Below, piece by piece: positions 1,198 through 7,056 of a stretch of DNA of 39,267 nt. The stretch is taken from the NCBI GenBank assembly GCA_009869945.1, contig WIXG01000553.1, positions 1-39,267 on the forward strand, read 5' to 3'. The position numbers and the translations under genes are program-made. The stretch comes from Mesaphorura yosii (lineage: Eukaryota > Arthropoda > Collembola > Poduromorpha > Tullbergiidae). Under the pieces are notes generated by a model. The model worked only from the letters and a program-made list of their open reading frames with translations, was not told the DNA's origin and searched no databases. Each line of letters begins with the position of its first letter. Positions within the stretch are counted from its first letter, which is position 1.

Positions 1198-1938
1198 TTA
1201 GTATTGGTCAGTTATTTGTCGCAGATGATGCACGACGTTCGCAGGGGTTTGAAGAAGTTGCCAGTTGCTCAATTCAAGATCAATGTACCCAAAATCTTCC
1301 CTCAAGGCAGCCAGACACCAGCTAGCACAATTGTGATTATTTTTTTCAAAATTTGAAGCCGATGTCGACGAATGGTCTCCAGATGACATGTAAACACTCT
1401 CCTTTACATTCAAACCTTTAATCTTGGCTTCAATAGCATCACCATTCTCAAACCAGTACGGTTTGATCCTTGCAAAATTAAACAGATTAGGATTCTTCCA
1501 TAACAGACTGAACGCCAATTGTTGAACATCATCCGCTAAACTGCCTGTGACTACTTTCACCTTCACATTTGGTGTACCATGAATTGAATCGAGCATCACA
1601 TCATTCGGAACGTAGCAATAATCACACCGTGCAAATTTGCGCTTATTTTCGTCTGCAAGAATCCATTCAAACCAGAGGAAAGCATGACCACCAGTTTTAT
1701 TATCTTTACTGCATACGACGGCAATTGTAAGTTGATTCGGCGCAAGTACCCTTTCCTGATCCAAAAGGGACCTAATCTGAACGTGTGTCGGGAGTTGAGC
1801 ATTCCATACCCAATTTACGATTCCTCGCCAACTTGTCCTCACTTGTGGCACTAGCAGTGAAGCAAGTCGAAGTCCCAGATGGTAGAGCACAATAACTAAT
1901 ACGTATTTTCCAAGTTCGACGACGGTTGGCAAAGCCAT
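1198..1938 (-). CDS. Membrane-anchored His...Cys (permuted papain-like?) protein, divergent partner of the NACHT gene
   Basis: Single-exon gene of 246 aa. I start it at the first ATG (1938), because the frame upstream of that opens only with TTG. Residues 11-30 are a hydrophobic helix (signal anchor). The remaining ~200 residues form one domain with a conserved-looking His in GGHAFLWFEW (H85) and a Cys in NNHNCASWCLAALRE (C204, C208). His before Asn-Cys is the order seen in circularly permuted papain-fold families such as LRAT-like NlpC/P60, but I see no specific family match, so protease, acyltransferase or deamidase activity is only inference. A very similar His...Cys arrangement sits at the C-terminus of the divergently transcribed NACHT protein (start at 2233). 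The two starts are 294 bp apart and may share a bidirectional promoter. No introns, and base composition is AT-rich like that of its partner. Confidence 0.7.
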   Translation of the reverse strand: MALPTVVELGKYVLVIVLYHLGLRLASLLVPQVRTSWRGIVNWVWNAQLPTHVQIRSLLDQERVLAPNQLTIAVVCSKDNKTGGHAFLWFEWILADENKRKFARCDYCYVPNDVMLDSIHGTPNVKVKVVTGSLADDVQQLAFSLLWKNPNLFNFARIKPYWFENGDAIEAKIKGLNVKESVYMSSGDHSSTSASNFEKNNHNCASWCLAALREDFGYIDLELSNWQLLQTPANVVHHLRQITDQY

Positions 1939-2232
1939 TTTATTTTGCGCACACTGTTCTTCACCGCAGAGCAGACAGTGAAGTTGCTGCAAATGGAGAT
2001 TCTATGTTAATCGAGAACAGAGAAGACAAACAGATACAGTCATTCATACGACGTAAATGGGGTTTGCATAAATTATCTTATCAGTACCTGGCAACTGGGC
2101 GTAGAGAAATATCCGTTGTGACTCATGACCAATTTCAAATTCGGACTCGGTAACTATTTCCAATCAAAGTGAATAATAATTTTAATACCAATTAGAGTAC
2201 TAGTAGTACTGAATAATAATTCGAATTTTAAA
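1939..2232. promoter_or_regulatory. Intergenic region between divergent start codons, likely bidirectional promoter
   Basis: This 294-bp AT-rich stretch separates the ATG codons of two head-to-head genes. I see no clear TATA box for either direction. The promoter role is inferred from the gene arrangement alone. Confidence 0.35.
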
Positions 2233-5200: not shown

Positions 5201-7056
5201 GAAATGGTGGTGCGCTGGAATGGTACCAATTGAAACAGATGCGCATACAGAAGATTGCCGTGCAAATAATTGACATGCCATCCCAAACAACTTATCTTTG
5301 TATGGAGTTATTCAGTGATGACTTTATCATACTTTGTCACTCAAGCAACAATCGTAGCATCACAATTGAACATTTACAAATCAGCACAGGCAAGTCAACG
5401 CACCGACTTGAGGTCAACATAGCAGAAGAAATCAACCCGCACATTTCATCTCGAAATACTCGCATACTGATTTCAAATGAACATGGAAAACTAGTATGTT
5501 GTCTGACTAAAATCCATATTTGGCACTTGCAAATCTCACCGTCACGTTACAAGTGTCAAAATAGCCCAGGACAGGCTGACCTATTGTTAATTTCCTGTGA
5601 GCACGGATTTCCAGATTTCAGTCGTGCATCAATGGCCTTCAATATAGGATTCAATTTCAATTGGCTGGCTTACAATTCAGGTAGTGCCAACGACGGAATT
5701 CTTGTTTGGAACATAACCGCACAAAGTGAGTCTTCACCACTCAATGTGCTCACAACCAATGAACCATACCAGACATTGTCAATTCACGAGCAATCAGATG
5801 AAGCGATATTTTTGTACTCATGTATACGAGGTTGTCTAACATGTTGGAAGATTACAAACTGTAAAAATGTACAATTAGTGTACAAAAGTAGTTGGCCGGA
5901 ATTCCATACATTAGGCGCAGTCAGCAATTGGGGCAATGACCGCCAACTTATTATTGCAAACGATTTTGACAGTGTGAGCCTCGTAGATCCACAACAGCAG
6001 CATCCGCGTACTCGTGGACATCCTCAGCTCAAACTATTGCTCAATTTCAAGGTCTGGTTTGATATTAGTTCTCATAGTTACCGAGTGAATTCTTCAGGAC
6101 CTGAGGGACTTGCACTGCTTGTGGGGTCTTCTGGAGAGCATCAGCCTGCTTGCTCTGTGCGATTTTGGTACGACGACGTTGAGAACGAATGGAAGTGGAA
6201 ACTTGTGTGGTCAAGGCATCCATGTGCAAAACTGACAGCGACGAATTCAAATCTGACCCGCACCTTTGTTGATAATCAACTCAACATTAAACTGTTGAAA
6301 CAAATTGGTGCGGGTGGATATGAGCAAATATGTGCTCGCCATTTACGATACAATTCATACGCAAGTCTATTTACTGAAATCGTTGGCACAACGGTTCGGC
6401 CTGGCATGCCGTCTCTTACCACTCTTCGGATTAATGGTGAATCATTTTCAATCTCAAAAGATAATTGGGCCATATTTGTCGTTGCCAAGCTTCAAGAAAC
6501 TGAGACTGCACGTCAACTTGGTTTAATTCAATCACATGTGTTCTTTGTCATAGAAGGAATTCTGAATAATCGTCGTTTTCTAATCTACGCCGACTACATC
6601 GTCGAGGGGGTACGAATGTTTGCATATTGTGATGCACATAATGCTGGCCAAGCGTGGGCACGATTCAAAAGTTACTCAAGTAATTGCAAAGATTGGCAAG
6701 CTCAAAGTTTTCTCGTATCCCAAACAGACGGGTTGAAATTTATTAATTCTATTCATGTGGATAAACAAGAATATTTTCTATACGGAAGATTTTCGCATAC
6801 AAACAGCAACAATTTAAGTTGTACTGAATGGGCGCGTAGGAAACTGATTATAATTGATGGGAATCTGAATGACAGTTGGCATAACAAACACTGTTGTCTG
6901 CCATCTGATCTTGTTTTCCCTTACCAGTCAAATATTCTGCTTAGAACTCTACTCTTTTATAGAAATATTCCCATGCAGTGGATTCGCCTGAGTGGTGAAT
7001 TGATTTTGGATATCGTCGCCATGGTACTTGCAGAATGGCTTCTAGATGCAATGTAA
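2233..7056 (+). CDS. NACHT / pentapeptide-repeat / WD40 NLR-like protein with C-terminal His...Cys domain
   Basis: Uninterrupted 1607-aa frame with a good start context (AAAATGG). Residues ~65-230 are a NACHT-type STAND NTPase: Walker A GDSGFGKS at 73-80 and Walker B LLLVLDSYDE at about 135-144. Residues ~540-605 carry pentapeptide repeats (for example LDLRDVQIPNANLNNAMLGG). Residues ~610-1400 are divergent WD40-like beta-propeller repeats (GHHHPVV...ITWDI, ILVWNI). The last ~200 residues form a separate domain with H1435 (QSHVFFVIEG) and C1530 (NNLSCTEWARR), matching the order and context in the divergent neighbour at 1198-1938. STAND proteins of this layout are known mainly from bacteria, especially cyanobacteria, and some protists. 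They use the repeats as sensors and the NTPase to oligomerise. Here the C-terminal domain could be the effector, which is inference. The lack of introns across 4.8 kb contrasts with neighbouring genes that have an intron every few hundred bases. Confidence 0.85.
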   Translation: MDPVIHFVRTRYDQVRRHTLNSQLCSSSIYIEPTGSSQDHPAAEVFHLISRLVQEINNCNQQQRQHSSFLVLGDSGFGKSLLGLELCKLFWDNYKQWGRIPINIDLHEYSTMENLLEQYFCSETIDWQVLRRQKLLLVLDSYDETQVKVNISERQFDGFGWNGADGQFQDVKVVTLCRKQGMSAIRRRQLFSFKKFLPPNSSPAHLEFYMHPFSSTDLHCYLQTFVTQLKSGGENIPVSLQMVKQTTNGTKWEVWANEGSDNPNEYLRWFKTLSDLWQLGATPLIFAMILHIMPAMLNELSNCEGFDWTKEKSRELSQLRKLCSTKTGIYDQFSSQWFEFQAKRIWKSRNPFSLFKNIPRDQFPTLCRIYSRNLALSLLRKGKFEDSIQIETTLHWSLMDPVCQPDLLDVCRQNFPYDEDTDQEKCDNLVAIRDACLLQFSNGKCRFSHSSLIPYFASVHLFQTLELVFQMYLDNKLSPVGKETATMLIDNRLYDADILSELANRVHLHDHFAGILLEIVYASRTLPSIATFSSNAITILNAGGYTLSGLDLRDVQIPNANLNNAMLGGSDLRGANLDGVYMVHAYIPAVKLQGANMYQVEFGEIPSIQHENSNMLVTVTSICSGYHNELGREFWYVAFKHGLICRYALETNSPEPLREEPRRLGNKMLVISAANRVVSWNQEPFEDRIMINTWAFEQPEAITDSVELKTECGFLIAEHSNHVVILAGNYLRVWYVDTNSGKFISKFEGTEPGFVNTRRGSKTRHHDTRRLTISYDTTHRDCLICVSEKKALTVLKLNNSTVAQFEPDTKSMTTEFPAQVSCMEFSNSQTIVFGFKVHSKTPEINCKAFRINRDGDLELEECQQLRGHHHPVVNLTRNSTGDKMASCCQNTIITWDITQLPYIPEQCINITSGNSPAQFGDIVFSFSCDSKYLACSFGEMTSLSEIKVYKLHKVHSTYTERLLNQTEVGAIRLATVSQDASSFAMLIQGRNGGALEWYQLKQMRIQKIAVQIIDMPSQTTYLCMELFSDDFIILCHSSNNRSITIEHLQISTGKSTHRLEVNIAEEINPHISSRNTRILISNEHGKLVCCLTKIHIWHLQISPSRYKCQNSPGQADLLLISCEHGFPDFSRASMAFNIGFNFNWLAYNSGSANDGILVWNITAQSESSPLNVLTTNEPYQTLSIHEQSDEAIFLYSCIRGCLTCWKITNCKNVQLVYKSSWPEFHTLGAVSNWGNDRQLIIANDFDSVSLVDPQQQHPRTRGHPQLKLLLNFKVWFDISSHSYRVNSSGPEGLALLVGSSGEHQPACSVRFWYDDVENEWKWKLVWSRHPCAKLTATNSNLTRTFVDNQLNIKLLKQIGAGGYEQICARHLRYNSYASLFTEIVGTTVRPGMPSLTTLRINGESFSISKDNWAIFVVAKLQETETARQLGLIQSHVFFVIEGILNNRRFLIYADYIVEGVRMFAYCDAHNAGQAWARFKSYSSNCKDWQAQSFLVSQTDGLKFINSIHVDKQEYFLYGRFSHTNSNNLSCTEWARRKLIIIDGNLNDSWHNKHCCLPSDLVFPYQSNILLRTLLFYRNIPMQWIRLSGELILDIVAMVLAEWLLDAM

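Follow-up and report, generated by a model that had tools for sequence, protein, structure and literature searches.

NOD-like receptors of the NACHT-PPR-WD40 type have been described from Mortierellomycota and their endosymbiont Mycoavidus, and a transfer of such receptors from the intracellular endosymbiont to the fungi has been reported (PMC11291939). Other proteins of intracellular bacteria act inside their hosts, such as the Legionella effectors Pels and AnkB, whose CaaX tails are prenylated by host enzymes (PMC13081727). The NlpC/P60-like L. pneumophila effectors SidG, Lpg1387, Lpg1797 and Lpg1909 are described with predicted Cys-His pockets like that of TseH, the His preceding the Cys (PMC11696984). 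In permuted NlpC/P60 enzymes, a His, a polar residue, a conserved active-site tyrosine and the Cys follow one another along the chain (PMC3142127). Here, we describe a divergent gene pair from the springtail Mesaphorura yosii: a large protein (L) with the NACHT-pentapeptide-WD40 order of the fungal and Mycoavidus receptors and a small protein (S) share a domain with conserved His and Cys residues, which we name HisCys. The two genes occupy the left end of contig WIXG01000553.1 (C553; 39,267 bp), analyzed whole and called the window below, from a 93-Mb assembly of 1127 contigs (GCA_009869945.1). Both genes are single open frames, 294 bp apart. We lean towards reading them as a horizontally acquired, membrane-tethered pair of sensor and enzyme.

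A preliminary description of the locus had judged S and L homologous by eye, and its frames and quoted motifs are present as described, including His85 and Cys204 in S and His1435 and Cys1530 in L. Direct comparison does not carry the homology. BLASTP aligns the two proteins at E 0.38, and under BLOSUM62 shuffled sequences scored equally or higher in 98 of 1000 and 187 of 2000 trials; the direct alignment was accordingly rejected as proof of a shared domain. The domain itself is clear because third sequences link S and L. A search with L residues 1–640 gave 14 proteins at E 1 or better, including NACHT-pentapeptide-WD40 proteins of Mortierella, Candidatus Magnetobacterium and metagenomes, and only the metagenomic P0003 among them bears HisCys (E 3e-30; next-best protein E 0.69). 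Its C-terminal domain, after the propeller, matches both S (shuffles 1/2000 with BLOSUM62, 0/2000 with BLOSUM45) and L (5/2000 and 13/2000 with the two matrices). A bacterial-only profile, made from 43 domains of bacterial genomes and excluding P0003 and all rows from M. yosii, was searched against 788 frames (509 from the window, 279 from five further stretches of the genome), each also reversed. It found L at E 1.3e-16 and S at E 9.5e-10 (in two pieces, the best at 2.4e-4), with the best reversed decoy at E 1.9; with P0003 added, the values were 3.3e-17, 1.4e-9 and 2. S and L share one domain. The same bacterial-only profile also matched the paralogues S2, S3 and L2 introduced below, a frame on contig C929 and, weakly, a broken copy on C698 (E 0.0073).

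Residue conservation was assessed over 49 domains, namely window S, window L, P0003 and 46 distinct frames spanning the profile (of 53 matched). The alignment holds many near-copies, and choosing profile-spanning rows favours kept His and Cys; read with this bias, the His is kept in 47 domains, Glu or Gln six residues later in 49, a polar Asp, Glu or His in 47, the Cys in 48 and a Trp in 47, giving the family motifs HAxLxxEG and HNCxTW. The third polar residue is Asp in 22 domains, His in 13, Glu in 12 and Asn in two, and the tyrosine site holds Tyr in 29 and Phe in 15, with Tyr in 16 of 16 rows of a narrower profile, A4. One relative (locus L069, 1396–1983, minus strand, genome G047; ending CNMF) lacks both His and Cys and is a possible pseudoenzyme. 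Protein-database searches with S and with L residues 1330–1607 found no match at E 10, and sequence searches of the PDB stayed at chance level (S E 0.68, profile A4 E 1.2). The Pfam profiles for PPPDE (PF05903) and LRAT were not among the matches at thresholds of E 0.1, 1 and 10. Other family profiles gave chance-level matches only, including DUF2459, a papain-like family (PMC10318531), at E 0.14 in the protein of bacterial locus L067. No Pfam or NCBIfam model matches this enzyme-like domain family.

The His-before-Cys order, proposed in the preliminary description to be that of circularly permuted papain-fold enzymes, holds across the alignment as permuted NlpC/P60 enzymes require, and the polar residue after the His is likewise kept. 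From Tyr to Cys there are 21 residues in S and 16 in L, compared with 7 in LRAT and PPPDE1, 13 in YiiX and 27 in BcPPNE (residue numbers from PMC3142127). With the permuted kin (YiiX/BcPPNE 3kw0, PPPDE/DeSI 2wp7, LRAT/H-Rev107, TseH and CLN5), the modelled HisCys domains share the order of His, polar residue and Cys (with a Tyr between the last two in S, L and part of the family), a His on a strand and a Cys that starts a helix; they differ from them in having no sequence-family match above chance, in often replacing the Tyr by Phe, and in their own motifs. Permuted NlpC/P60 enzymes and kin are among the top structural neighbours of both predicted models, TseH being the best for S. CLN5 and viral 2A proteins are related to the permuted NlpC/P60 fold. 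Bluetongue VP5 also occurs in both lists; Mediator, galectin and lipocalin neighbours, not at the top of both, were judged incidental. The similarity scores fall in the range that the tool calls common, which together with partly diverging raw identities slightly lowers our confidence. Foldseek with the predicted models found no match at E 0.001. Structure prediction, the check proposed for the pair, thus gave the expected kin among top neighbours but no match at that threshold, and we regard the fold match as suggestive, not decisive. By its residues, HisCys may be a thiol enzyme. Its likeness to SidG, Lpg1387, Lpg1797 and Lpg1909 is one of description, and the main text of that report does not mention NACHT (PMC11696984).

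L contains a NACHT ATPase, as judged from its P-loop, its Walker B motif and a family alignment in which the region can be aligned with bacterial and Mortierella NACHT proteins; the Pfam match (PF05729, E 0.012, 15.8 bits) is below the curated cut-off of 26.7. A pentapeptide block and then a divergent WD40 region follow, as in NACHT-pentapeptide-WD40 receptors, although the propeller matches are weak (Table 1). The approximately 230 residues after the WD40 region have no Pfam match. Canonical features of animal NOD-like receptors (NLRs), namely a death-fold or similar N-terminal domain and leucine-rich repeats, gave no Pfam match in L at E 1, and PADLOC anti-phage defence models gave no whole-protein match, only a weak local one in L (E 0.0011, residues 57–149).

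A genome scan for the NACHT-pentapeptide junction (A2) yielded 17 loci out of 42 stretches, five of them with HisCys by a three-sequence profile (L001, L002, L005, L010 and L016). The same scan of viral contigs gave three loci, none with HisCys, and scans of viral contigs and genomes with L, S or profile A1 gave nothing that was confirmed. Junction and HisCys stand together in eight frames, at L001 and L002 (Tatlockia, Legionellaceae), L005, L010, L101 and L103 (OFTM143), L016 (SW_53) and L096 (G380, a genome drawn from the class of OFTM143). With two 5'-truncated frames (the first in L002, and L104) these make ten long frames whose 3' end is available, a count that omits L097, whose end lies outside the stretch, and L102, the C-terminal piece of a long gene with an interrupted frame. 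A stand-alone HisCys frame lies at most 40 bp from five of the ten (L001, both in L002, L005 and L101), as measured between open frames, not start codons; L010, L016, L103 and L104 have no second HisCys frame closer than 1 kb in the stretch examined, and the neighbour at L096 ends in C-x-x-x but has a different His...Cys layout. By eye, frames near HisCys genes at L096 (9088–9798, plus strand) and L059 (2490–3461, plus strand) show GHVS...SCAS and GHVS...NCSG layouts; the L096 frame overlaps the long frame at that frame's end, and its own tail is CTLL. Overlapping frames at L100 (73–537 and 494–1237, plus strand) are possibly a tandem pair, the second with HisCys (ending CLIM) and the first with a weak match (CLVM).

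Because stand-alone frames adjoin half of the bacterial long frames, the HisCys-partner pair is a bacterial arrangement, known here, in other orientations than in the window, from two bacterial lineages. The preliminary description had proposed a new architecture for an animal NLR-like system; this does not stand, since the same NACHT-pentapeptide-WD40-HisCys protein and its small partner exist in bacteria, the long protein in Legionellaceae and further Gammaproteobacteria. Its pairing of a sensor ATPase with a stand-alone copy, one whose N-terminus is hydrophobic, is supported; the pair recurs on contig C672 of this assembly and, in bacteria, as adjacent genes. Identity of S and L to the bacterial relatives is low, 13–22% in HisCys and at most 28% in the NACHT region. 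Some stand-alone HisCys copies (L099, L107 and L108) have neither a HisCys nor a NACHT frame beside them in the stretch examined. Searches with A4 at E 0.001 found the domain in at least 7 of 369 genomes from the class of OFTM143 and at least 6 of 143 from the order of Tatlockia, tallies that include genomes from which A4 was built, and in at least 31 of 232 Chlamydiota, a search that covered the phylum of a Chlamydiae metagenome-assembled genome. We take the order of Tatlockia to be Legionellales. Frames of 412–607 aa make up 12 of 20 retrieved Chlamydiota loci, and eight Chlamydiota proteins had no NACHT match in Pfam at E 1. Two frames from the Tatlockia-order set, of 531 and 545 aa (L067 and L068; genomes G124 and G048), carry HisCys mid-protein, with ankyrin Pfam matches in L067.

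A C-x-x-x ending (CVMQ, CLLM, CALM and CNIL are examples) closes 17 of the 20 bacterial HisCys frames outside Chlamydiota whose stop lies in the stretch examined, the exceptions being the long L005 frame, L010 (ending CALMQL) and L098. Of the remaining open frames at the same loci, counted from 150 aa upwards, 5 of 159 have this ending, two of these five directly adjoining family members; many of the 159 are surely not genes, and several of the 20 are close paralogues and so not independent cases. Small paired bacterial proteins whose end is available carry their own C-x-x-x tail in 4 of 4 cases (L001, L002, L005 and L101), and Chlamydiota frames in 3 of 22. A NACHT-pentapeptide protein of Chlamydiae without HisCys (L017, 1183–5262, plus strand) ends in CSVM soon after its propeller. 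The excess of CaaX-like tails suggests that the bacterial HisCys proteins are prenylated in eukaryotic cells. They share such tails with Pels and AnkB (PMC13081727), and some come from Legionellaceae; what sets them apart is that their own delivery and prenylation are putative, and that S and L have no CaaX, ending in ...TDQY and ...LDAM. Both arthropod proteins instead have hydrophobic stretches, S near its N-terminus and L at its C-terminus, where many bacterial relatives carry the CaaX tail. Kyte-Doolittle values at the corresponding ends are stronger in L2 (2.65, C-terminus) and weaker in S3 (1.30, N-terminus) and the C929 copy (0.58, C-terminus), whereas in the last 40 residues of 22 bacterial HisCys frames (two run off the stretch) the value never rises above 1.09. 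Since 2 of 26 other M. yosii frames reach 1.6, this contrast is only suggestive. From hydropathy, S has a likely membrane anchor and L a candidate one.

The family has further members in the M. yosii assembly. Relatives of S occur on C313 (37%) and C672 (33%), the latter in a second pair, in which S2 (238–789, plus strand) and L2 (977–4828, minus strand) are convergent with 187 bp between the frames. L2 has pentapeptide, WD40, HisCys and tail helix; NACHT was not found in the frames of the stretch examined. S2 and S3 are 69% identical, and a Nei-Gojobori script of our own gave dN 0.20 and dS 1.30 over 169 codons, values that point to constraint between them; comparisons with S were saturated. 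Further pieces lie on C929 (HisCys), C698 (HisCys, broken), C678 (part of a NACHT), C313 (a broken second S) and C643 (mainly WD40-region pieces, partly broken), and searches with S and S3 found no S-like gene on C929, C698, C678 or C643. The family is thus duplicated and partly decayed inside the assembly, which argues against simple contamination. A NACHT model gave 25 matches in the genome, 15 over its cut-off, a count in which one match passes only when taken together with those beside it; the model also matched in 14 of 14 control genomes, over the cut-off in four. Some matches lie in open frames of 1036–1955 aa, on C951, C618 (two), C613, C1025, C958 (with one TGA), C887, C964 and C894, and HisCys queries found no match on these contigs. 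This is perhaps a sizeable NLR-like repertoire for a 93-Mb genome. Beside the second pair, two frames on C672 (locus L030; 5332–6993, minus strand, and 8421–9518, plus strand) look GTPase-like by eye; against Pfam the former matched only MMR_HSR1 (E 0.038) and the latter nothing. The former presumably combines AIG1/GIMAP-like motifs with a MACPF-like stretch.

The origin of the pair was addressed with a NACHT-pentapeptide tree built without the HisCys domain. L stands beside OFTM143 proteins inside the group of HisCys bearers, with support of 91/82 in a first tree and 93/88 in a second that omits P0007, P0011 and the duplicate L004_7537, both below the starred level. Constraint groups were named after the first tree, and L003 and L007 in the HisCys-bearer group are unlabelled, their sequence ending before the domain's place. 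Placing L in a clade with fungal and Glomeribacter rows was rejected (p-AU 8e-5); grouping it with all non-HisCys rows was not (p-AU 0.063). Two observations run counter to the tree placement: the top raw identity of L is to Glomeribacter (28%), and its best database match is from Mortierella alpina (phmmer, L 1–640 against P0001, E 2.8e-22 over 92%). L differs from the Mortierellomycota and Mycoavidus receptors in bearing HisCys, in its arthropod host and in the rejected clade with fungal rows. Given the tree placement and the reported precedent in Mortierellomycota (PMC11291939), horizontal acquisition by an arthropod from a bacterium of the kind that lives in host cells appears the better reading, although the searched collections contain almost no animals. 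The system is most likely bacterial in origin, not an animal invention. Literature searches returned nothing joining Collembola with NACHT, or NACHT with pentapeptide, WD40 and Mortierella; those on Legionella effectors with CaaX and NACHT, or on springtail horizontal transfer with NACHT, returned nothing on the subject as judged by title.

NACHT proteins are switches that assemble upon activation. We propose that the locus is a two-gene system of the STAND (signal transduction ATPases with numerous domains) class, taken up horizontally and by now part of the nuclear genome. The pentapeptide/WD40 part of L would sense something and trigger ATP-driven oligomerisation, as expected of its class, clustering the C-terminal HisCys domains at a membrane where a C-terminal hydrophobic helix holds them. 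S would provide a second HisCys copy, permanently tethered by its N-terminal helix, as amplifier or partner of L. HisCys would act as a circularly permuted NlpC/P60-type thiol enzyme, with Cys as nucleophile, His as base, Asp, Glu or His as third residue and mostly Tyr or Phe at a fourth site. At membranes it would most likely hydrolyse or transfer an acyl or isopeptide group, on lipids, lipidated proteins or, as for PPPDE, ubiquitin-like tags. The bacterial versions would resemble effectors that host enzymes prenylate at CaaX and so fix to host membranes; the arthropod copies have hydrophobic helices in its place.

Other explanations place the origin or the function elsewhere. The pair could belong to an intracellular bacterium and have been joined to an arthropod contig by chimeric assembly or contamination, as its position at a contig end, its nearest full-architecture relatives, which are bacterial, and a GC content below that of the other window frames compared might suggest. 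In codon usage both genes stand closer to the bacterial family genes (correlations of 0.80 for L and 0.69 for S) than to host genes (0.68 and 0.55), but the bacterial family genes intercorrelate at 0.93–0.97, the host frames RTK and RTK2 also reach 0.74 and 0.72, and RTK2 likewise leans to the bacterial side, so that codon usage is not decisive. Both genes are followed by AATAAA and start in AAAATGG, hydrophobic helices replace CaaX, identity to bacteria is low, S2 and S3 appear constrained, and diverged relatives lie on several other contigs, one of which, C313, looks arthropod by eye from a carboxylesterase-like frame; we give contamination little credence. Hardly more credible is the reverse transfer, in which bacteria of eukaryotic cells took the pair from a eukaryote. 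CaaX tails are meaningful only inside eukaryotic cells (PMC13081727) and animals are hardly represented in the searched collections, yet the NACHT-pentapeptide cassette occurs across Nitrospirota, Planctomycetota, Myxococcota, Chlamydiota and Pseudomonadota, and L stands beside one such group.

As for function, HisCys could be a domain for homotypic interaction or membrane binding that L uses to recruit S. The same domain on sensor and neighbour recalls adaptor pairing, the L069 relative has lost both His and Cys, and fold matches do not show activity; the retention of His, polar residue and Cys in permuted NlpC/P60 order, even allowing for the choice of rows, and the stand-alone copies without such neighbours make a non-enzyme unlikely in our view, if less so than the two preceding scenarios. 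S might also be an inhibitor, decoy or substrate of L in an effector-and-guard set rather than a co-effector. The tight linkage in bacteria and at two loci of this genome would suit such a set, but the small proteins paired with long ones keep His and Cys and carry their own C-x-x-x tails, and we rate this idea as low as the reverse transfer. The sensor-enzyme pair acquired from bacteria thus stays our favoured, moderately confident explanation. A possible immune role for it is suggested by the architecture, the pairing and the company of other NACHT-like genes.

The remaining window genes are animal and, with hemocyanin (M and C domains) among them, were called arthropod; they include an SLC4-type bicarbonate transporter, a receptor tyrosine kinase with EB module, and VOMI. 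Rfam and tRNA scans of the window gave no match. A MULE-like transposase piece lies at 34009–34716, minus strand (PF10551 E 0.0032, below its cut-off), and two long frames (12454–13761, plus strand, and 35819–37048, minus strand) resemble arthropod gustatory-type membrane receptors by eye, with no Pfam match at E 0.01. A longer S frame of 264 aa begins at TTG, not ATG.

Table 1. Features of the S/L locus, in window coordinates.
Feature	Position	Strand	Remarks
AATAAA after S	1093..1098	-	about 100 bases past S
S	1938..1198	-	stand-alone HisCys protein, 246 aa, one open frame, first ATG at 1938
S hydrophobic stretch, likely membrane anchor	1849..1905	-	residues 12-30; Kyte-Doolittle 2.01 over 19 residues; helix 6-29 in model
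S HisCys domain	1291..1740	-	about residues 67-216
S His85, candidate catalytic histidine	1684..1686	-	first residue of a strand in model
S Asp106, candidate third polar residue	1621..1623	-	D/E/H in 47/49 domains
S Tyr183	1390..1392	-	by sequence order, counterpart of conserved Tyr of permuted NlpC/P60 enzymes
S Cys204, candidate nucleophile	1327..1329	-	first residue of a helix in model
Intergenic stretch S/L	1939..2232	.	294 bp between divergent genes; presumably holds both promoters
L	2233..7056	+	NACHT-pentapeptide-WD40-HisCys protein, 1607 aa from ATG, one uninterrupted frame
NACHT STAND ATPase region and following part	2410..3672	+	P-loop GDSGFGKS, Walker B LLLVLDSYDE; limits approximate
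Pentapeptide block	3853..4050	+	PF00805 E 4.4e-5, above cut-off; family junction SNAITIL just upstream
Divergent/degenerate WD40 region	4150..6267	+	PF25174 E 2e-6 (below its cut-off), PF00400 E 0.75; limits approximate
L HisCys domain	6379..6897	+	about residues 1383-1555
L His1435	6535..6537	+	third residue of a strand in model
L Asp1454, candidate third polar residue	6592..6594	+	from alignment
L Tyr1514	6772..6774	+	from alignment
L Cys1530	6820..6822	+	first residue of a helix in model
L C-terminal hydrophobic stretch	6988..7053	+	residues 1586-1607; Kyte-Doolittle 1.74; helix in model
AATAAA after L	7085..7090	+	28 bases past L

With HisCys, the possible effectors of NACHT sensors gain an enzyme-like domain family that no Pfam or NCBIfam model covers. 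Judging by its matches in Chlamydiota and in the order of Tatlockia, this family of candidate host-acting proteins is widespread and apparently still without a name. The tails, C-x-x-x in bacteria and a hydrophobic helix in the arthropod, amount to a testable prediction of where the domain works. The locus hints that sensor and partner entered an animal genome jointly, their source being bacteria adapted to intracellular life. Tentatively, we propose that the animal lineage made a family of membrane-tethered NLR-like sensors out of a two-gene set of intracellular bacteria, a STAND sensor and a stand-alone copy of a new permuted papain-fold enzyme family, both of which in the bacteria would work within host cells by means of host prenylation. 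Domestication would have exchanged the prenyl anchor for transmembrane helices while keeping the pairing. If this is true, a bacterial tool acting on host membranes would have become a host effector, plausibly one directed against intracellular microbes.

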